The position numbers were made by a program, and so were the translations under genes. From Pegea sp. RAD2-039 (Eukaryota > Chordata > Thaliacea > Salpida > Salpidae), in the NCBI GenBank assembly GCA_034620365.1, contig JAQGEQ010000380.1:2542001-2606000 (forward strand): 64,000 nt of DNA, in the 5' to 3' direction. Each line of letters opens with the position of its first letter. Position 1 is the first letter of the stretch. Shown piece by piece: positions 8,222 through 63,407 of the stretch. The notes beneath the pieces were generated by a model, which searched no databases, had not been told where the DNA came from, and worked only from the letters and a program-made list of their open reading frames with translations.

Positions 8222-10230
8222 CAATAAATCTGAAGGAGGGTTTCTGAAGAGAGCACCTCTTGCTAACACACATTTTCACAAATAATACCTAGAAAAAGAT
8301 ATCATACATGGCATTTCAGTAGTATTCAATTTTTTTGATATCAACAATTTGATATGGCATCTATGCATTGACATTCTATTCAAGAGTTGCACGTACATAC
8401 AATTTGAAGAGATTGATAATTAAGTATAGATCCTTAGACCTAAAGGTCTTTATAATAAAGTAGACAAGGTTGATTGATTTTACAAAGATTTTGGAATCAT
8501 AATTGTGCTATTTAAAGTCAGATGATAGGACCAAAGGTATAGGACCGAAGATATTCGTGACTTAATGAATCCATTGATGGAGTATTGGTTCAAAGAACTT
8601 GCAGCTGATTTGCAGAAGAAAGGTATTTGTTGGCTGGATTCTGAGCTGCCAATTCGTAGACCAGTTTTCTACAGTTTGTAGTGCAGTTTGAAGTTATGAA
8701 GGATTACAAGATAATAGCTTGATGATCATCTGCATAAACAAACGCACTGACATCATCTACTGCTACTAGTCTTCTGGAGGTCTTTAATTAAAATTAAAAG
8801 AGAAGGGGACCCAGGACGGAATCCTGAGGAACAACGCTAGCGACTTGACTAGGAGTAGAAAAAGATCTTTCTACACGAGTTTGTTGAATTCTACCTGATA
8901 AATAATCTTCAATCCACTGTAAGATAAAGCTGTTGATTTTTAAGTTTTTCAATACTTTAATGAGCTTTTTGTGTGGGACAGAATTAAACGCTTTAGCAAA
9001 ATCGAGATATTTGATGTCACAAGGAGTATTACTTTCATAATGGGTTGTAAACTCATTAAGAAAAGTGAGATGTTGAGTCAGGGAAGATCTCCGTTTCACA
9101 AAGCCATGCTGGACATCAGATATTAGATGGTGCTCCATCAAATAAATGGTCATATGATTGTGAATGATATGCTCTTGAGTTCTACAGATAACTGAAGTCA
9201 GCGAAACTGGTCTGTAGTTAAGTGCGGTGTTTCTGGGACTTTTTTTATGAATTGGAGTAATAATAGCTTTCTTCCGAATTTGTGGAACTCTTCCTCGCCT
9301 CAGAGCCATGTTAAAGGGTTCAAAAGCGATAAAGATAGTGAAAAAGAGGAAGTAGTTTTTCTTTAAAAAAAGTAGGGATCTGATCATTGGTATTGGAAAC
9401 TGGTGATTTTAAAGAAGAAATAGCTTTAGATACAATATCGACAGTTTTGTCAAAATCTATCATCTCAGAGACATTTGTAAGAATATCGTTGTACGAAAGA
9501 GAAGGAGTATTGCCATCATCGGTTATAAAAACGCTATTAAATTGATTGTTTAGCAATTCACCTATAATCTCTGTTTCCATCACATGCTGGTTGCTGTTAT
9601 CAAGTAAGGGAGGTATTTGAGATCTCGGCTTGAGCTTGTGATTTATGAGACCAAAAAATGTTTTCTTGCTAGGTTAAGATAAGACTGCACTTTCTCTTTC
9701 TAAATAGAATTTAGAAACAGATTGCTTTTAAACTATACAACGATCTTTGTACAGAGATTTGATGGAAGGGTCTGCTTTAGTTTGTTTGTATAGAAGGTTT
9801 ACTAAATGTTGTAAATTCATTAAATATTTGTGCAAATGTAGTTTTTTGTTGACCATAAAGAAGTATAAGTTTTTAAATTGACTCTTTAACGATGTTAATA
9901 AACCTTGAGTAACAAGTATTGATGTCTTAGGTAGAGTTGAAACAGTAATTTAGGTAACACCAGATAGAAACTCATTAATATCATTATAATTTCCACGATA
10001 AGAGATCCTTTTGCTTGTAGTTTTAACGTTCATAAAAAGTTTGATGGAGCTTGAATTCAATCATATTGTGATCGCATGTCGGAGCAAAAGGTTCATATTG
10101 ATCAACATACAAAATTTTCTCAGGTTTTGACGTGATAATAAGATCCAAGGTATTACCACTAACTTGAATTCGAAAAGTAACCGTCTGAGATAGGTTATTG
10201 ACATCGAGAAAGCTTACAAAAGGCAATTAC
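8222..10230 (-). mobile_element. Degenerate CR1/Jockey-like LINE, ORF2 endonuclease and reverse transcriptase
   Basis: Read on the minus strand, 10226-10023 encodes the end of an APE-type endonuclease (GNTLDLIITS, then CDHNMIEFKL). 9387-8794 encodes reverse transcriptase fingers and palm, with LNYRPVSLTSV, QHGFVKRRS, YLDFAKAFNSVPHKKL and a VPQ-SVLGPLLF block in which the usual glycine is aspartate. The second catalytic motif YADD lies in a neighbouring frame near 8740. The thumb follows to about 8340. About 500 bp present in the copy at 10735-11510 is missing between 8336 and 8310, where the sequence jumps to the family's 3' tail (8222-8310). Frameshifts and stops make this a dead copy. CR1/Jockey membership is inferred from motif spelling. 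Confidence 0.85.
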
Positions 10231-12764: not shown

Positions 12765-28722
<15,958 letters not shown>

Positions 28723-40555: not shown

Positions 40556-40792
40556 ATCTCTTTCAGCTAATTAGATATTGAACATTTAATTGTCAGATGA
40601 CTTTTTGTTGTTAGCTTGTTTTTTCAGATTTTGTACATTTTCAATCTCAATTTTTTCTGAAAGCTAATTAATGCAAGGAACAAATTATCAATAAACAGAA
40701 AAATTGTTTTTTAATAAGATTACATTTATTTTTCGCTTTCATTATTTTATGTTTTACAACAGGTGTTTTGTTGAGTAATTAGGAATCTTGAT

Positions 40793-41808
40793 ATGTCATC
40801 TAATTCCAAACCACTAACAGCTCTTCGTGTATCACAACTAGATGTAAATGGACTTGATCAAAATATTCTAGATTCACTTAATTTGAAACTTCAAAATTGC
40901 TTAAAATATCCTTTTTTTGGTAAATTTGACGCCAGCAGGTTCGCACCCCACATTCGTACCTTACTTTATGCTTTCGTCAGCTACTTTGCATTAATAAAAA
41001 ACGGTCAAACAATTGGACAGAAGTTACTACAGTTACGGTTAGTAGTTAAAGAGTCTGTTGGTCACACATACAAATTATATAATTACAGATATGGTCACTA
41101 TAAAACTCTTCAACCTCTTTCAAAGACTCATTTGCATATACTTAACACCGCTTTAATCCTAATTTGCTGGAGGAAGTCTCTTTCTAACTCTTCACATTCG
41201 ATTACAATCGACAAATGGGGGAAATGGTTGGAACCTTTATATCACGCTGCTACCATCATCAACTTTCTCATTTTTTTATATAACGGAAAATATCAAAACT
41301 TATTACTTCGAATCTTAGGTGAGGTACATTCACATTTGTATTAATAAACATTTAGTTTAAATGCAGGAATTAGAAGTGTTCATGTGAACTCTTCCCCTTT
41401 ATCACGTTCCATCAACACCACCTTTCTTCGCCGTGAACTGGTTTGGAGGGGTGTAGCTGAATCTACTATGTTCATTTTATCTTTTATCAATTTGCATAAG
41501 ATACGACGTCACGTATCTCAGTTGATTTCTTCCTACAAGTCGAAAGGTAATTAATGAGCATCAGGAATTCTATTTAGATGTGAAATTCTGTAGGTGAGCA
41601 AGCTCCAATGAACTTTAATATATGTGCCTTCTGCCAGAAAACACCAATCATACCTCACCAAGGAAAATGTCTTCTGCATGTTTATTGTTACTACTGTGTT
41701 GCAGTTGCTATCAGCAATGACTCTAACACTAAATGTCCATCTTGTGAAGTTGTTATTGGAGATATTTTAAAACAATTGCCGTCTCAGAAACATATTGTTG
41801 AGAATTAG
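40793..41808 (+). CDS. PEX2: PEX2, peroxisomal RING E3 ligase subunit (3 exons)
   Basis: The three exons are 40793-41318, 41367-41546 and 41594-41808. They total 921 nt and encode 306 residues, against 305 in human PEX2. PEX2 is a peroxisomal membrane RING-finger ubiquitin ligase that, with PEX10 and PEX12, ubiquitinates the import receptor PEX5 for recycling. The N-terminal domain begins LRVSQLDVNGLDQNI and has hydrophobic helices around residues 50-70 and 115-175, then RELVWRGVAESTMFILSFIN, which matches the conserved late helix. The C-terminal RING has CAFC, GKCLLHVYCYYC and KCPSC, so all eight zinc ligands can be assigned. The first Cys-His pair is spaced C-x2-H rather than the common C-x-H. 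Introns are 47-48 nt. An acceptor-like TTTTACAACAG ends 30 nt before the ATG. The gene converges with ABCB7. Confidence 0.92.
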
Positions 41809-41926: not shown

Positions 41927-45925
<3,999 letters not shown>

Positions 45926-47964: not shown

Positions 47965-48154
47965 GATTTGTTTTTAATATCATCACCAATATGCATATCC
48001 AGCATGGTCAATCTCGGCCGAAGTAGGCCTTATAATATCATTTTGATAAATTTTTAGTGTATAGATTTGTTTTTAATATCATCACTCATAGCATATCCAG
48101 CATGGTCAATCTCGGCCGAAGTAGGCCTTATAATATCATATGATAAATTTTTAG
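47965..48154. repeat. Two-copy tandem repeat with a 99-bp period
   Basis: Copy 1 (47965-48057) and copy 2 (48064-48154) both run from GATTTGTTTTTAATATCATC through a GC-rich centre to AATTTTTAG. The centre GCATATCCAGCATGGTCAAT plus CTCGGCCGAAGTAGGCC is unchanged between copies, while the outer AT parts differ by small indels. The centre can fold, since GGCC and GGCC are separated by GAAGTA. The unit is not found elsewhere in this window by eye. It could be a satellite monomer, the 3' end of the neighbouring LINE, or a small-RNA-like unit. I cannot decide among these. Confidence 0.8.
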
Positions 48155-50635
48155 TAAAAGAAAATGATCATTATCGAAAGTTTTTCTTTGTTTAATTTCT
48201 TTATTTTGCCAGGAAAACTTGAAATTATTTAATCACAACTTTTCTATTTTTATTACCTTTTATTTGATTGTTGCATATGATTGATTTCAATAAATTGTCT
48301 TTAAGATTTTTATTTAAAAAAGTACAAGAGTTGTTTAAATATGATGATAAAATAATGATTATATCTATACAGTTGAATAATATTGAACAAATTTTAATTA
48401 TTCTACGAAACTAAAATCAAACCTTAATGAACATCACAGAGTAAATGAAACTTGTTTAAGCCAAAACTCTTAACTTGTGATTGAAATGTATTTAGAAGTT
48501 TGTAAGATTTATGCTTTTAAATATAAAGTTCAAAATAAGGTTTTTGATTACTTACTTTTTAGATCATAATCTTGCAATTGTTGACTTCTAGATTCAATTA
48601 TACTATAGCTACCAACATAAAAATGAAAACTAATCGCCCACGGTAAAGCTGCAACTGAAATAACTTAAAGATAAAAATTCATTTAAATAATCTAAGGTTT
48701 AAGAAAAGTTATAAGAAAGGTAATGGTTAATAAAATCATTGCCATCTGTTTGGTTTTGCTTCTTTGAATCAATATTTTTGAACTTTTTGTTACTAGTGGT
48801 AACTAAGTAATTAAAAAGTAGGTTTTTCATATTTAGCTAAAAGATTAACTTCTTGAGTAAAAATATCTTACCAATTTCTAAAAAATCATATACAGTAAGT
48901 TCAGCTTTGCATCTAAACCATTTACTAGACAGTACACCTGCTCAATATTGGACTTAAACATTAAAAAAATTACTATAGTTTAGAATCAATGTATATCCAC
49001 ATAGACTTCTAAATGTATAATTTTTGGCTTAAGCTAAAATTCTAACAAAAATTAATTTCGTTTGAGTATAAAAGATAAAATAATTATCTTAATTTCAATC
49101 AAACTTACAATTTTTTATAGTTTTAGATTCTGAGAAAAAGTTTAAAAGATAAATTAAAATTAAAGTTGTTTTTTGCTGTAACGTTTGAAAAATAATTTGT
49201 TACAGAAACTTGAAAAACATTGACATAGTATAGTAACTAAATTGTATGGAAAAACAAATATTGATTGATATAAAATACTTCTAACAACTTTTAGTTTATT
49301 GTGAAGCAAATACATACCTTTCAATAACTATTAGCAGCTCTTATAGTCTTATAAACCTAAATTCAGGCTGTAAACCATAAAAACTTGAATTCATAAAAGG
49401 TTTGCTTTCTCATCTTTCAGATGATTCTAAAGGTAGTACTAATAAAGTCTTTTGATTGTTTTCAAAAACTCAAATGATAATATGAATGACCTTTGCCCAG
49501 ATGTACTTTTGATTAATAAATCTGGATCAGTTTTAAACTGAAGAGCAAATATTTTAGAGTGATCATTCTAACTGTTTTAAATGCAATATTAGTATAACCT
49601 TAATCTCATTTTTAAATTTTTTAGAGTGTTATTTGTTAATTAATTAAATTTATAACTTGCTTTTGCAACTAATAATTGTAGATATTCAAACATATTAATA
49701 GTAAATCATCTCTTATAGAGTTTTGTACGTTCTTCAATGCGTTAACTGATTAAGTTAGTTTTTATGATAGACTTGTTTTATAAGGCATTAGAAAATAAAT
49801 GTTTTATTTATCAAAATATTTAATTTTATAAATATTCTAATGTTTTGGCGAAATTAGTGTTCACGATCAATATGTATTCAAATAAGAAGTTTTTGACAAA
49901 ATTTAAATAGTTATAAATATAAAATAGTAACCTCGTAATTTGAATAAGTTAATTATTCCTAGATATTTGATGCTTAAGAATCATATTTTATCAATAAAAC
50001 ATTCAATTAATCAGCTTTCTAGTTTTAAATAAAATTCTGGTTTATAACAAAAACCGTAAAGTTTGCGTATTTGAAAAAGGTTATCTGATTTGATGAGAGT
50101 ATATTGAAATACAAACTGTGATATAAATAAACTTTCTATTTCTAGAAATCAGCTGATTGTTTGCAGGTAACCTGATAGATAAATAATCTCACACTTGCTT
50201 ATATGTGTGCACTGCATAAGCAAAAGTGTTTACTTGAGTTTGAGAAACTCATTTCGGTTCTAATTCTATCATTTTTACACAGAATTCAATGTTTCGTTGC
50301 TTGTATATTCAGCCTGTGATTTATTGAAAACTATTTTGATAATTTAAACAATAGAGAGCCACAGTTGTTTCGATGGAAATTCTTGCAATAATCGATCAAA
50401 TTTAAAGTAAAAGAAAAACAGACGACATTAAAAAAAGAAAATTAAAAAAAATCAATTTCATTTTCTAATGAAAGTTGAAGAAAGTTTTACAAAAAACATA
50501 TAAAGAAGTAGAATAGTTTAATTATCAGTTTTTTCTCTATAAACTGATTGATAAACATCATTCTAACATTATTTAAATGTTGACAACTTCAAACAGCAAT
50601 CAAATGAACAGAAAAGACATTTAATGAAGTCACGT
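48155..50635. other. Intergenic, TMEM106 3' flank
   Basis: AT-rich sequence without a supported gene. Short splice-like fragments near 48560-48660 did not assemble into a coding frame I recognise. Confidence 0.5.
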
Positions 50636-57000: not shown

Positions 57001-58012
57001 ATGAACTTACAAGTGACCATTTTGTTGTTGTTATCTCTCATTGCTTCTTCACAATCTTGCGCTCGCGGACGGTAATCAATTTTATTCATCCTTTTTTAAT
57101 CTATTAATACAACTTTCTGAATTAAGTTTTATAATTTTTAGCAAACTTTCAAAATCTTTGCAGCTATACTCAAAATATATAAGTTGTTGATTTTATATTT
57201 CAATTTATTTTACTTTTAATACTTTTTTTATTTACTTTTACTAGTTAAAAGTCTACTTTACGTTGTATTAAAACCATTATGCAGCAAAAAAAAGACTTTT
57301 AATTACTGAACTTAAATCATAACTAAACAATAATTGCTAAATAAGAATTGAACTATTCAAAAGTTATTGCTAAAGATTACAATATCAAATAGTTTCTTTG
57401 AATATAGATAAAAATTCAATAATTTAATTGGCTTTGAGTTTTTCTTAGTGTATTAGAATCATATCAGTTATTTTAGGTTCTTATAATAAAGCTTAAACTT
57501 GCAAATATTAGACTACCGACTTGTAGTTTTTATCCTATATAGCTAACTTACTTCTATAATTATTGCAATAAGTATAAATTGCAAATGTAATTTTTTTGCG
57601 ATATTCTCTATAATTTATTGGTATTTTTGATGGTAGAAAAATTTCTGTAAAAAATGAACTGAAAGGAGATGAGCTCGATGATAACAAATCTTTAGATGTC
57701 AAGATGGTAATTTGATTAAGTTTAATTTCTATAAATTATTTTTTATTTTTCTATTAATTTATTACATCGAGTTTCGATTTCAATTTTAAATTGAACATCG
57801 AGTATTGTGCATGATACATAAAAACTAAACTAACTTATACATGAATCAATCCAAAAATACAATCTAATAATAATTCGTTTTAGATAACAAAAGATGTGTT
57901 AAGTCAAAATTATATTGGAGAAATATATGATGAATTAGTTGAAGACTTTGGTCAACCCGCTATTAATAAACTGATGCGCGATTTTTATGCAAATAAACAA
58001 AGTTTGTTTTAA
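57001..58012 (+). CDS. Small secreted protein, novel family member A (3 exons, 89 aa)
   Basis: Exons 57001-57071, 57637-57706 and 57884-58012 join in frame (intron phases 2 and 0) to an 89-residue protein. Exon 1 is a signal peptide (MNLQVTILLLLSLIASSQS) followed by CARG. Exon 2 is basic then acidic (VKNELKGDELDDNKSLD). Exon 3 is helical in character with IYDELVEDFGQPAINKLMRD. The same architecture, phases and exon-3 motif recur in the gene at 62436, so the call rests on conservation between paralogues. A TTACCAAACAG acceptor-like site lies 4 nt before the ATG, and AATAAA is at 58168. There is one cysteine after the predicted cleavage region, no transmembrane segment beyond the signal, and no known domain. 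The function is unknown. Confidence 0.7.
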
Positions 58013-58299
58013 TTTAGCTACTAGTATTTCGTAAAAATAGAATATTTATGATTGAATATCTTTCACTTGTCATTGATAAATTGTAAGAGTTTGCTAGTAT
58101 TCTGTAATTATAATGACTCTTTGAATCGAACTTTATTTAAATTTGTAAGAAGACGACTAATAACAACAATAAATACATTAACTATACACGCTATCCACAA
58201 CACATTTTATTCTCAAATAACCCAGGCATATAAGAGAATAACACATTTATGTCAGTGTGGTATTACAGTAAAATAGTTTGCTGCAGAAGTAAATTAGTT

Positions 58300-58720
58300 A
58301 AGCGTCATTTAAATATCTCTATTGTGGGAAAGATATTTAAAGCTCTTATTGATACTGGATCCTCGAAGAGCTCTGTAAGTGGAAAGATTGCTCGGAACTT
58401 CAAGGTTCACAAAGCTCAAGCTACTTAATAAATTTAAAGAAGAGATGGCTTAGTTATCTAAGATTTGCAGAACAAACATATTTTGCAAAGTCAACCTCCA
58501 TCTGTTGAAGGAACAGTAGATAAATATAAAGCAGTTTGTCTGAATCATTGGTACACACTAAAGATGTAATGAGAAAACAAACACGAAATTGTCATTCCAA
58601 ATGTTTTAAATGTGAGCAGAGAGGACGTTATAGTCATTCGTGGATGTTAAAATTGGGTCATCTACGAAGCAGCTGCATCAGAAAAGAAACAAGAGAAGAG
58701 ATGCGATGAAGCTAAGACCA
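58300..58720 (+). pseudogene. Decayed LTR-retroelement coding fragments (aspartic protease and zinc knuckles)
   Basis: Near 58335-58420 the plus strand reads GKIFKALIDTGSSKSS, the active-site signature of a retropepsin. Near 58590-58672 it reads CHSKCFKCEQRGRYSH, then LGHLRSSC, resembling two gag CCHC knuckles in which a His and a Cys have been lost. Stops and frame shifts separate the parts. The knuckles lie downstream of the protease, the reverse of normal gag-pol order, so the element is rearranged or two remnants are present. It is inactive. Confidence 0.55.
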
Positions 58721-59930
58721 GAACTAAGTATTTGTGCGCGACTCAACTTAATCGAATAGCATTCAGACGCTCAAGTTATTATGAGGTAGAAAAGATAAAA
58801 ATAGAAAGCAGAAGAAGAAGAAGAAGAAGAAATCCGTCCTTACGTTCTAAAGAACAAACAATAAGCTCTATTGGATCTAAACAGGGATCAAAAAGGAGGC
58901 TTAAACTCTCTCGCTGCGAGGAAGAGTAGATCAGAAGTAATCACAAACGCTGATGGGAGATATATGAGAGTTTTTCCAAGAATGAAAAATGAGTTCCGTA
59001 GAAGTTGTTACAACCACGGCGGAAGAGAAGATAATTGAAGCGAGATAACAATCTTTGTAGCGCTGGAACTTACTTTTTATCCTTATTGTTGCTTTTTGCG
59101 TTGTCATTTTATTCAGAATGCAAATCTTTGGTAGAACAGCTCCTTACCACTCACAGTTCTTAAGTCCAACGGAGATATAAAAACGACTTTAAATGAATTG
59201 CAGTATATAGAGTAGAAGAACTTTGTTTCCGAGGTCATTGGATGGAAAGAGATCAAATGAATCCTGATCCGGAGCTTTTGAAACTTCTGATGGATCTTCA
59301 TCCCCTTACAAATCCAAGTCGTTGCACTGAGCGCAGAGACGTTTTTGACTCATGTGATGAGTTTGTAGATTTTTTGGATAAGGTCCATTAATTCTCTATG
59401 AGAAGAATTAGGCGGTGAGTTTGATATGAAATGGGAACCATGATGAAGATAGATTGGACCAAGCAAGAAGAGAGCTTCATACTATCAGTTTAGAAGAAGA
59501 GGTATTAATAGTTCCTGTCCTTGTTCTAGCCAATAAATAAGATAATGATATCCAAATCCAACATTCCTTTAAGTGATCTAGCCAGATACCCAAATGTCTA
59601 AGAACAAGACTTTAACGTTCATTCAGGATGATGTAATAAATAAGATGGTAAAATCCTTCGGGGACTTGAGGGGAAGAAGATGAAAAGAGGGACGAATCTA
59701 GTGTGCAGGTTTCCAATGACAAAATAACGACGAGCTTTGAAGGTTTGAATACCAGAAGCGGGTAACGTCAGTCCGAAGAGCGAGAAAAACAACAGGATGA
59801 AAGTCCGACTGTCGACCAGATCATTTAAAGGTGTTTCTCCAAGGCGCTACGATTTGGACTAATTATCGTTGATGGCAATAATGAGACAGCGTGCAATCTT
59901 TGCTGTTTGGCTTAATTATTTGGTTGGGGT
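58721..59930. other. GC-richer decayed element interior
   Basis: This stretch is clearly less AT-rich than its neighbours and is probably part of the same LTR-element remnant. An (AAG)n run encodes Arg repeats at 58803-58832. A polypurine tract lies at 59668-59692, as is found just before a 3' LTR. A short open run near 59240-59390 (DPELLKLLMDLHPL and so on) matches nothing I know. Confidence 0.4.
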
Positions 59931-59933
59931 GAG

Positions 59934-60150
59934 TGTGTTATAAGAGTAAAGTATTTTGCCGCTGACGTAAATGTCTCATTCTCTTATAGGCGGTTGTCAC
60001 TTGGTAATAGGCTATGTGTATATAGCGCGTATCGTAATATATTTATCGCTGTTGTTAGTCGCCTTAATAATTTGATTATAGCTCTATATAAAGAGTCACT
60101 ATCATTACAGTCAGCGGTAAAACACTCTATCGTTATACAGAATATTCATT
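59934..60150 (+). mobile_element. Possible solo or 3' LTR with TATA promoter
   Basis: The segment starts at about TGTGTTATAAGAG and ends near CGTTATACAGAATATTCA. It contains a clear TATA box (CTATATAAAG, 60083-60092) and an initiator-like ACAGTCAGC about 25 nt downstream. It follows the polypurine tract at 59668 and gag-pol-like fragments. I cannot find the matching upstream LTR in the window, so the borders are guesses and it may be a cellular promoter instead. Confidence 0.35.
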
Positions 60151-61235
60151 AAAAAAAAATATTTAAACTAGTTTATAAGGTAAAACTGTGATATTACAAT
60201 TTTAAAATGATTGTTGTATATTATTTTACAGATAAGCAACAGCTTGAGTCAATGTGAAGATTTAAATAAATTTGTTTGGAAAATTAGCTTTAAAAAGAAA
60301 ATATTTTTTGTGTATCTTCTAACTTGTAAAGTTTAAAAATGATTGACCCTTTTAAAGATTTTGTAAAAGAGTTTTTAAGTTTGTTTTAAAGGATGCTTTT
60401 TTATTTGCTAATTTAAAATCTTATTTTCATTTAAGTTCAAAAAATTTTTTTCCTACTAACTAATTATCTACCACTTTTCTTTAATGAACAGATGACTTTC
60501 TAAAACATTATTTAGATCTGAAGTTTTCATCTGCATCTCTAACTAATGATGCATGTAACTCTCATTAATTGTTAAAAGCTTGAACATCTTATCTATCTTT
60601 GTGAATTCGCAATGAATCTTGGTTTAGGAAAAACAATTTGTCAAGTCTATCATTACAGTTTTTATTGTTATAAAAGTATCATCATGAGTAGAAATAATAG
60701 AAAACTGAACAAAGAAATTTTGTTGAAAGACTGAATAAATGGTAGCATACAGTTGTTAACACTTATCAAATATCATAAATTCTTCAAAAAATAAATATAT
60801 TTCCCTTAAGCGAATAGTAGGATTATTTTTGTAAATAACGTTTAAATCTAATAATCCTGCTTTAATTACTAAAATTAAAATTTTACAAACGTGTACAAAG
60901 CTATAACTTCAAATTAAACCAGAACAACCGTGCAAGTAGAAAATGCTCCAAATATTGTTGATGTCAATTATGTAACTGGCAATCTTTACAGCCTAGAGAT
61001 GGTCATATTAAATCTTCTATAAGATTTTATGATCTTAATCTGGAAAGTAGAAGTATTCTTAAAGAATTGACATCTTTCAACTCAATAAAAATGGATTGGT
61101 AGATGATGCTAGGTAATAAAAATAACTCTTCACAAGAGCTTTACTGTTTCATAATTTACGCATAAACCAAACAGTAAGTAATTATACTAATAATACTACT
61201 TTATCCACTGTTATATGCTTTAAGGACTACCAAAA
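60151..61235. other. AT-rich intergenic sequence
   Basis: No gene is supported. A mildly coding-like stretch at 60930-61110 was examined in all frames and is broken by stops. Confidence 0.5.
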
Positions 61236-61366
61236 TTCCATGTGTTACATCTTTTTCTTTCTGTATTTTTAACTTAATAGATGTTATTTGTAAGAATGTG
61301 TGTTAGCGAGAGGTGCTCTCTTCAGGCACCCTCCTTCGCATTTTTGTAATAAATAAACTTATCAAA
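61236..61366 (+). mobile_element. Short LINE 3' tail
   Basis: This is about 130 nt matching the 3' tail of the LINE copies at 8222, 11390 and 46470. It includes GTGTTACATC, the GAGAGGTGC...GCACCCTC hairpin (about 61308-61334) and an AATAAATAAA end. It is the most truncated copy in the window, lying 66 bp upstream of the duplicated signal-peptide exon segment. Confidence 0.75.
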
Positions 61367-61432
61367 AGTGTAATTAAAAATGATTGTTTTTAGAATTTTG
61401 TAGATAGGTAAGTTTTCAAACAAAATTCAGAC

Positions 61433-61609
61433 AGTGTTTACAATTTTTCAATGTTTGTTTTCAATGTTAAACAGGAATTTTGTTATAAGACAACAATATA
61501 AATAAAAGATGAAAATAATCATTTTGCTTATGGCCGTGATTTCATGTTCACTAGCATGTGGCAACGGAGGGTTGGTATAATTCAAAATGCTTGCAGCAGT
61601 TGTAAAGCA
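61433..61609 (+). repeat. Upstream copy of a 177-bp direct duplication (promoter, signal exon, donor)
   Basis: This matches 62360-62536 at a constant offset of 927 bp with only two visible substitutions. It covers about 75 bp of upstream sequence, the whole signal-peptide exon and the start of the intron. Confidence 0.9.
61509..61570 (+). pseudogene. Extra signal-peptide exon of the small secreted family (B), orphan or alternative first exon
   Basis: The exon (61509-61570, phase-2 GTTGGT donor) encodes exactly the same peptide as the first exon at 62436 (MKIIILLMAVISCSLACGNG). No exon 2 or exon 3 partner lies in the 800 bp before the second copy. It is therefore either a truncated gene copy or an alternative first exon that splices to 62565, giving the same protein from a second promoter. 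The near identity argues for a very recent duplication or gene conversion. Confidence 0.6.
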
Positions 61610-62359
61610 GTTTTTAAGAAATCTTTCAAATCCAAAAATTAATTAAATCTTTATAAAATTTCAACAAGAATAAAACTTAAAGTTTACATTCAATGTCAGA
61701 AGAAAACTTTTCCTTTTATTATTTTTCTATCCTTTCTGTTTTACAATATTTATGGTTTTAATTATGTCACTTTAAATTTAGTTATCAAAAGGTCAAAAAG
61801 TAAATCTAAAATCATTTTCAAAGTAAATTAGTTTATGATGAAAGTTGAGATGTATTGTTCTTATATATTGTTATCTTAATTGAAATATATGATCTGTAAA
61901 ACCTATTCTACTTAAGTGTTTTCATATGAACAGCTGTATGAAATCCTTTGTTCGGTTATTTTGTTTGTTTCCGTTTGGTTTTCATTTAAATTATAAAGTG
62001 ACTGAAAAGTTTGTTTAGCAAAACAAAATTAAAAGTTTTTGCTAGTGCAGCGGCAAGTGTTTTTTCATTGGAATAATTTGATGTTTCTAAAATACTTTAT
62101 TTTAGTAAAAAAATAGTTACAGCTTTTTAATCATTTCTTTGAACAGTTTAGTTTTGAGTAAAAATAATGATGTTTGTAAATATTTTCTTTTTATATAAAA
62201 TAATTAGTTAAAGCTAACTTATGGTGCTACTAAACCACCTCAAGATTTGTAAAATGAATGATTAAATATTCTCAAATATAAACTTCTTATGAAAGAAGTT
62301 ATTAAAAACTATTCTTTTTACAATTTGGTATATAAGTAATTTCTAAGATAAAATTGTCA

Positions 62360-62536
62360 AGTGTTTACAATTTTTCAATGTTTGTTTTCAATGTTAAACA
62401 GGAATTTTGTTATAAGGCAACAATATAAATAAAAGATGAAAATAATCATTTTGCTTATGGCCGTGATTTCATGTTCACTAGCATGTGGCAACGGAGGGTT
62501 GGTATAATTCAAAATGCTTGCAGCAGTTTTAAAGCA
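62360..62536 (+). repeat. Downstream copy of the 177-bp direct duplication
   Basis: This is the partner of 61433-61609 and contains the first exon of the complete secreted-protein gene. Outside the duplicated block the two flanks are unrelated, so the edges are sharp. Confidence 0.9.
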
Positions 62537-62908
62537 TAAATTAAATTTATCTAAAATGTTTCAGGAATGTTCAAAGAAATAAACAGGATGTAGATGAGTT
62601 TTTTGACTTAGTAATGGTAAGCTGTTATACAAATGTATAAAATCTTTTTAAAAAGTTTATTCTTTCTGAATTCAACTTTACAACTGCTTACAGCTGTTTG
62701 CTTTCTTTTTATTGAAACATAAACAACTTTTATCTATTTTGTGTCTTCGATAACCTCAGCATTATACTTTCAGATGGAAAGTGATGCAGAATTTAAAACA
62801 CGTATTCAAAATATCTATGATGATTTATTAATTCAGTTTGGTGAACCTTTTATTGTCCAACTGATTAAAGATGTCAAAACAAAACTTGTGACTGAAAAAG
62901 GTTTGTAA
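62436..62908 (+). CDS. Small secreted protein, novel family member C (3 exons, 82 aa)
   Basis: Exons 62436-62497, 62565-62616 and 62774-62908 join in frame with intron phases 2 and 0, identical to the gene at 57001. Exon 1 is a signal peptide (MKIIILLMAVISCSLA) followed by CGNG. Exon 2 is short and charged (RNKQDVDEFFDLVM). Exon 3 has IYDDLLIQFGEPFIVQLIKD, aligning with IYDELVEDFGQPAINKLMRD of the paralogue. The second possible donor in exon 1 (GTATAA) would put a stop into exon 2, which supports the phase-2 donor. A GTTTGT donor at 62901 could replace the stop and lead to a fourth exon near 63255 or 63305. AATAAA at 62933 favours the three-exon form. The protein is small, secreted and probably helical, with unknown function. 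Confidence 0.7.
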
Positions 62909-62932
62909 GATGAAAAATGTCTTTTCAAGAAA

Positions 62933-62938
62933 AATAAA
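62933..62938 (+). promoter_or_regulatory. Poly(A) signal of secreted gene C
   Basis: An AATAAA hexamer lies 25 nt after the stop codon of the three-exon model, implying a very short 3' UTR. A second AATAAA follows near 62965. Confidence 0.45.
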
Positions 62939-63254
62939 CGTCAACCCAAATTAATGTCAGCAATAAAAAAAACTCCGGTATTTAGATAAATTATTCCATC
63001 AAAACTCTTACTTTAGATGACTATTAGAAGTTTTATTCTTATTAATGTTGTAATGATATCTAATAAAATTAAAGCAATTTTAGTAGACAGCAGAATAGAC
63101 AAGAGTTTTAGGATTTAATCAAAAAGTATACATGCAAAGTAGTAACATTAGTTAATAACAATTTTGTATCTACTAAACGTTTACACTGTCTTCTCAAACC
63201 ATATTTATAATTTCTTGTAAATACATTTCTCAACTCATAAATTTATTTTCACAG

Positions 63255-63407
63255 AAAGAATGCTTTCTACAGAATAATTTGAACGAAAAATAAGAGGAAA
63301 TTCAGTGTATGATAGAGAAAAATATACTCGGAGAGAATATTATACAGAAAAATATTATTCTGCTTTTGACAAAAGTTTTAATTTTTACCGTCATCCATCA
63401 ATGTAGA
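63255..63407 (+). other. Possible additional exon with a Tyr-rich tail
   Basis: After a TTTTCACAG acceptor the frame continuing from 62900 reads ERMLSTE and then a stop. Past that stop the same frame stays open as ERKIRGNSVYDREKYTRREY, then YYSAFDKSFNFYRHPSM, to a TAG at about 63405. An internal acceptor (ATTCAG at about 63302-63307) would skip the stop and keep frame. This could be an alternative C-terminal exon of gene C, a decayed exon, or chance. Confidence 0.3.

Follow-up and report, generated by a model that had tools for sequence, protein, structure and literature searches.

The conotoxin precursors of cone snails have a fast-changing mature segment; their signal region is conserved and their introns are relatively conserved, according to PMC6266589. 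The HYP effectors of potato cyst nematodes are secreted proteins in which, according to PMC4177990, conserved regions surround a variable one and only the signal peptide is annotated. Here we describe a protein family whose members are small and probably secreted and carry a short hypervariable block between a nearly constant signal part and an exon predicted to encode two helices. Two of its genes, A and B, are located in a 64,000-nucleotide stretch of DNA from Pegea sp. RAD2-039 (contig JAQGEQ010000380.1, positions 2,542,001 to 2,606,000; hereafter the window), which forms part of contig C6 in our searches of the genome (105.7 Mb, 387 contigs).

The A-like members of the family resemble the conotoxin precursors in the high conservation of the signal part, where only 0–5 of 63 nucleotides (nt) differ over six pairs of paralogues. 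Unlike in the conotoxin precursors, however, the variable block directly follows the predicted signal peptide and precedes the conserved helical domain, and all seven gene models have one cysteine in the predicted mature part and no C-terminal cysteine framework. The likeness to the HYP effectors consists in conserved regions flanking a variable one and in the lack of an annotated domain besides the signal. HYP variation takes the form of variable-number tandem repeats, whereas here the length of exon 2 is constant in all four modelled A-like paralogues. No tandem array was detected in the exons of A or B by Tandem Repeats Finder, which was run on the window (the paralogues lie outside that run). 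As for nematode markers, neither the Col_cuticle_N domain nor the SL1 sequence (at most one mismatch) was found in the genome, in which actin was found with 45 matches; the control genomes for Col_cuticle_N gave no signal.

Schistosome micro-exon genes also encode small secreted proteins distributed over several short exons. Many of their exons are symmetric and at most about 36 nt long, whereas exons 1–3 of the present genes measure 52–127 nt, with phases 2-0-1 and no series of symmetric micro-exons. The mate recognition pheromone of rotifers, a protein signal between mates according to PMC2746195, would be relevant only for a rotifer host and is likened here by description alone. Of these systems, the conotoxin precursors and the HYP effectors follow the same general logic as the family described here, but they fail as families on the features tested. 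Where a family combines a constant signal with a variable peptide, molecular conflict or recognition is often involved; in the present one the variable part comprises just 13 codons, is split by an intron and is tied to a fixed helical domain.

A hypervariable block behind the predicted signal peptide

The rate of change along the gene was compared in the four modelled A-like paralogues, which were identified by searches of the genome: C6_1967 and C6_1973 (at 1967 and 1973 kb of contig C6) and C44_29 and C44_346 (at 29.8 and 346 kb of contig C44). The block under test, codons 22–34, takes in the final 11 nt of exon 1 and continues into the head of exon 2, so that it is split by intron 1; it lies just after the cysteine at the predicted signal cleavage point. 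It outpaces introns 2 and 3, while the signal part and the helical exon are nearly constant. Within the block, 15–23 of 39 sites differ in each of the six pairs. Introns 2 and 3 taken together show differences at 8 of 196 (the C6 pair), 9 of 196 and 17 of 196 sites in the three pairs that do not involve C44_29, a six- to elevenfold contrast. Fisher p values for the block against these introns lie between 1.3e-5 and 4.7e-11 in all six pairs. The proportion of nonsynonymous differences (pN) in the block is 0.43–0.70 and exceeds the synonymous proportion (pS, 0.13–0.37) in all six pairs, whereas pN does not rise above 0.041 in the signal part or above 0.038 in exon 3.

The upstream border of the block is sharp. 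In the C6 pair, 1 of 63 sites differs in the signal part, 5 of 11 in the exon 1 tail and 1 of 40 in the first 40 nt of intron 1; the corresponding counts for C44_346 and a broken A-like copy on contig C59 are 1 of 63, 5 of 11 and 2 of 40. Upstream counts and between-group intron counts (11–15 of 40) in this comparison are ungapped and inflated by small indels. The pattern suggests that diversifying selection acts on a short segment, displayed on a conserved domain that is predicted to fold into two helices. The first-pass annotation had described A and B as secreted products, possibly fast-evolving effectors or signalling peptides, that have diverged outside the exon structure and a motif in exon 3. 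Among close A-like paralogues, this description applies to one 13-codon block and not to the signal part or exon 3; the proposal of a fast-evolving product agrees with the family of eight loci, their common phase plan, the constant signal and exon 3 and the block that outpaces introns, with secretion being probable.

Several observations weigh against the explanation that we favour below. The comparison of pN with pS in the block relies on 8.5–9.5 synonymous sites, and the whole test is carried by only four A-like loci, whose six pairings are mutually dependent. Owing to an indel in intron 3, the three pairs that involve C44_29 differ at 31 of 204, 40 of 196 and 38 of 196 sites in introns 2 and 3, with 65–73 gap columns. 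Moreover, the replaced sequence in which the exon 2 head of C44_29 lies also covers the end of its intron 1. C44_346 and C44_29 have nearly the same exon 1 tail (1 of 11 differing). Intron 1 was excluded as a yardstick because of large gaps; its divergence in the C6 pair (27 of 242) is above that of introns 2 and 3, and the C44 pair has 59 of 416. The contrast therefore shrinks to about threefold when the block is set against intron 1. In exon 3, pS is also low and pN is not below pS in three of the six pairs, so the case for constraint on this exon depends mainly on the comparison of A with C44_346, in which 20 of 118 sites differ in exon 3 and 159 of 445, 16 of 71 and 64 of 133 in introns 1, 2 and 3, respectively. 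Exons 1 and 2 are identical in B and its copy, and the B branch is therefore uninformative on the variable block. Some copies may be dead: the exon 2 donor of C6_1967 is AT instead of GT, which may impair this gene, and the C59 copy (C59:384081-385134, at 384 kb) has lost the exon 2 acceptor, carries a 19-nt insertion inside exon 3 and does not align in the exon 4 region. Two profile matches count against the absence of a known domain. Pfam DUF6671 matched three of the seven models (best E=0.0029, 17.9 bits against a cut-off of 23.8, residues 24–86) and covered the same stretch (about 24–87) in the two members inspected, with E=0.003–0.005. The NCBIfam PrsA model NF002361 also matched three of seven (best E=4.3e-5), with 14.9 and 13.5 bits against a cut-off of 428 over residues 4–89 in the two members inspected; our guess is that a lipoprotein-like signal ending in Cys drives this match.

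Possible explanations of the variable block

The explanation that we favour, with moderate confidence, is that of a small, probably secreted family in which a variable N-terminal segment is mounted on a constant helical scaffold and is kept changing by selection through a partner that itself varies. In sequence, an A-like protein consists of a signal-like N-terminus (nearly constant within each branch of the family), a cysteine at the predicted cleavage point, a 13-residue hypervariable segment, an acidic linker, a conserved domain predicted as two helices and a part encoded by a short C-terminal exon. The signal peptide would be cleaved directly before the cysteine, and the helical domain would act as a constant scaffold, possibly paired via this single cysteine. 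The hypervariable segment at the free N-terminus would contact the varying partner, which could be a competitor, a microbe, a molecule of prey or host, or the receptor on another individual. Selection would keep altering the segment, with the scaffold and the secretion signal remaining fixed. On our reading, the proteins would thus function as secreted ligands in recognition or conflict.

A possible, though unlikely, alternative is that the genes encode short peptide precursors, from which the segment is released as a free peptide, and that the helical part is a pro-domain for folding or sorting. Many peptide precursors are built in this way, with a single short variable block accompanying a signal and a domain that are both constant, and A, C44_346 and C6_1973 have basic residues within or next to the block. 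There is, however, no common basic cleavage motif, the block of C44_29 is devoid of basic residues, and a well-conserved helical exon follows on the C-terminal side.

We consider it rather unlikely that local mutation or sequence replacement, and not selection, accounts for the block, which would then be a mutational hotspot or a segment exchanged between copies. The end of intron 1 and the head of exon 2 of C44_29 were replaced together, intron 1 of the C6 pair is more divergent than its introns 2 and 3, and the long tract of high identity between B and its copy, set beside a much more divergent flank, suggests that conversion may act on the family. Replacement of this kind is at odds with the distribution of the variable sites, which flank intron 1 on both sides and end at the exon 1 splice site (in the C6 pair, 1 of 40 sites differs at the conserved start of the intron, as against 5 of 11 in the exon 1 tail), and with the preservation of the frame and of the 70-nt length of exon 2 in all four paralogues.

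Distinctly unlikely, in our opinion, is the notion that the proteins are recognition tags specific to individuals or species. In that case, the different 13-residue segments that the A-like copies show on their shared scaffold would be renewed by duplication, conversion and selection, and they would be read by matching receptors in mates, kin or rivals.

It seems still more improbable that the family represents structural or reproductive secreted proteins (of egg shell, lorica, cuticle or seminal fluid) with an N-terminus under little constraint. Small secreted proteins of such tissues are often fast-evolving, but lost constraint alone should not push coding divergence several times above that of introns 2 and 3. 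That the loci are chance reading frames or a dead repeat and not real genes is, in our opinion, highly improbable: one copy is broken, one has an altered donor and transposon pieces lie in or near several loci, but even divergent copies have retained their reading frames, exon phases, signal sequences and exon 3 motif, and A and C44_346 differ far less in exon 3 (20 of 118) than in intron 1 (159 of 445) or intron 3 (64 of 133).

Gene models and membership of the family

The genome was searched with A, B and one A-like protein as queries, and with one gene as DNA. Six loci were found in addition to A and B: the four A-like paralogues, the broken copy on C59 and a copy of B at 2782 kb of contig C6, which lies 178 kb from B on the opposite strand, i.e. 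inverted. The family thus has at least eight loci; member counts are lower bounds because the genome was searched exon by exon with single sequences. Aligned as a pair by BLASTP, proteins A and B gave E=6e-11. Since the signal peptides contribute part of this score, a separate profile of exon 3 was made from A and the four A-like paralogues, with B left out, and run on 8,265 reading-frame pieces of the extracted DNA (5,325 distinct). It recovered B at 8e-5 and the B copy at 2.4e-5, whereas the best piece from outside the family reached E=0.13. Chance similarity of A and B is ruled out by these two results, and A and B are related genes and members of a real family. As a query against the whole genome, B matched the A-like loci weakly (E 0.09–0.58) and A did not recover B; A and B are therefore distant relatives. 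The piece with E=0.13 (L033, plus strand, first frame) is located near the B copy and resembles the second half of exon 3; it was taken as noise, but may be either noise or a decayed fragment.

All seven models share exon phases 2-0-1, with exons 1–3 of 62–74, 52–70 and 118–127 nt; in the four A-like paralogues the lengths are invariably 74, 70 and 127 nt. The four junctions 57071/57637, 57706/57884, 62497/62565 and 62616/62774 have GT...AG borders and open frames. The exon 3 frame of A, B and the paralogues leads into the sequence GTTTGT in phase 1. In C44_346 and C44_29 this donor is followed by an acceptor, TATTTTACAG, and a short frame ending in DNQAIVSM, with AATAAA at an offset of 33 nt in the exon. 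Exon 4 of the two C6 paralogues stops after two residues. Every gene has many other possible acceptors for exon 4, and those chosen are the ones that are shared. The common exon 3 donor, together with a matching terminal exon, rules out a three-exon model. Four exons are well supported for A and probable for B.

The predicted precursors have 87–98 residues. In all seven models the N-terminus is hydrophobic and signal-like, and the likeliest cleavage point, judged by eye with the -3/-1 rule, lies just before a cysteine, after which no further cysteine occurs. Small residues occupy positions -3 and -1, again as judged by eye, and hydropathy peaks at 3.0–3.3 in the six first exons that were scored, namely those of the five genes other than A and C6_1973 and that of the extra B copy. 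The proteins of the family are probably secreted. Exon 3 carries the motif IYD[ED]L-x3-[FY]G[QE]P-x4-L-x2-D. For the 39 residues of exon 3 of A, AlphaFold2 with a seven-sequence alignment predicted helices at 2–22 and 24–37, with a mean predicted local distance difference test score (pLDDT) of 84.7 and a predicted template modelling score (pTM) of 0.50. The [FY]G[QE]P motif is placed at the turn between them, and exon 3 is thus predicted to form a conserved two-helix domain.

Searches of Pfam, NCBIfam and PDB returned no accepted match for the seven models, the best PDB hit having E=0.1. Matches to DUF6671, YyzF, DUF4865, MRP_L53, two PrsA models, pitrilysin, the LA_3150 lipoprotein, Cas4 and PqqD were set aside as chance, being below the curated cut-off where one was shown (the match to PrsA model NF009105 had no displayed cut-off). 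A histidine triad protein and a designed protein from PDB were likewise set aside, the PDB search having no curated cut-off. Judged by title, none of the papers listed in a literature search is on this family.

In the light of these results, the first-pass annotation was right to treat A and B as relatives and to place the four junctions where it did; further homologues, whose absence would have counted against it, were found, and its failure to recognize a known domain is borne out by the database searches; the label of an undescribed family holds within Pfam, NCBIfam and PDB, the scope of the comparison. Its three-exon plan overlooked the fourth exon, at 60232 in A and probably at 63255 in B, reached from the common phase-1 donor GTTTGT, and the models consequently grow from 89 and 82 residues to 94 and 87. 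Of the motif, the IYD[ED]L core and the order of elements stand, but the spacing is x4 instead of x(5) and the position given as F is [FY]. The start, which had been called Cys-rich, has just one cysteine in the predicted mature part.

Exon maps of genes A and B and other features of the window

Gene A is on the plus strand. Exon 1 (57001..57071) encodes the predicted signal peptide MNLQVTILLLLSLIASSQS together with Cys20 and the variable tail, and ends in phase 2; a homologous signal exon is present in five other A-like loci. Exon 2 (57637..57706) has 70 nt, as in all four modelled A-like paralogues; its head belongs to the variable block and its tail encodes the acidic linker, and it ends in phase 0. 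Exon 3 (57884..58001, 118 nt) encodes the domain predicted to be helix-turn-helix and ends in phase 1 at the donor AACAAA|GTTTGT. The coding part of exon 4 (60232..60257) supplies NKQQLESM and a stop, using the last base of exon 3, and AATAAA follows at 60265-60270. Its acceptor and the offset of AATAAA (33) match those of C44_346 and C44_29, and the DNA of the C6_1973 gene matches window positions 60147-60296 with E=2.7e-12, an independent support for this exon.

Intron 3 of A contains an old DNA transposon of about 2 kb (58102..60110, plus strand) with 154-bp terminal inverted repeats that are 73% identical. It has many relatives in the genome (663 first-look candidates, of which 40 were scored), and no clear target-site duplication was found at its ends. 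Pieces related to it were observed in five of nine 10-kb stretches examined. An intronic tandem array at 57191-57248 is the sole array that Tandem Repeats Finder reported at the A and B loci.

Gene B is also on the plus strand. Exon 1 (62436..62497, ATG at 62436) encodes the predicted signal peptide MKIIILLMAVISCSLA followed by CGNGG and ends in phase 2, exon 2 (62565..62616, 52 nt) ends in phase 0, and exon 3 (62774..62900, 127 nt) ends in phase 1 at the donor AAAAAG|GTTTGT. The probable exon 4 (63255..63277) would add ERMLSTE and a stop, using the last base of exon 3. It is less certain than exon 4 of A, with no AATAAA close by. Without the exon 3 splice, B would reach a stop at 62906-62908, with AATAAA at 62933-62938; since B could thus end unspliced at 62908, its last exon is probable but not certain.

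Comparison of B with its inverted copy (within C6:2778001-2788000) revealed a 987-bp tract, window 62123-63109, which contains exons 1–3 and is 96.7% identical. The next stretch, which holds exon 4, aligns at 67% identity and includes a candidate counterpart of that exon in the copy (ERRLFTK and a stop). Such a tract beside such a flank fits recent gene conversion or partial re-duplication. The promoter, exon 1 and donor of B are present a second time upstream of the gene, at 61433..61609 on the plus strand, with 99% identity over 177 nt. No second or third exon belonging to this extra copy was found before gene B, and it could serve as an alternative first exon.

Elsewhere in the window, several exons of an SMG1 kinase gene (PF15785, PF00454) lie on the minus strand at about 17700-23700, a Pex2/Pex12 N-terminal region at 40775-41344 on the plus strand, an ABC-transporter transmembrane exon at 44073-44369 on the minus strand, and a reverse transcriptase fragment of a retrotransposon (PF00078) at 8794-9408 on the minus strand. 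These exons and the reverse transcriptase are in line with an animal genome. In the genome, in which actin served as positive control, searches for COX1 and for the Chitin_bind_4 domain gave no match. The negative results for Chitin_bind_4, Col_cuticle_N and SL1 speak against an arthropod or a typical nematode as host, although the control genomes gave no signal for either of the two domains. By its size and AT content the genome would suit a monogonont rotifer, which is no more than a guess; the report of PMC1925144 that one such rotifer has no spliced leader is neutral on this point. Tandem Repeats Finder also reported a 98-bp unit, repeated 1.9 times with 94% matches, at 47965-48155.

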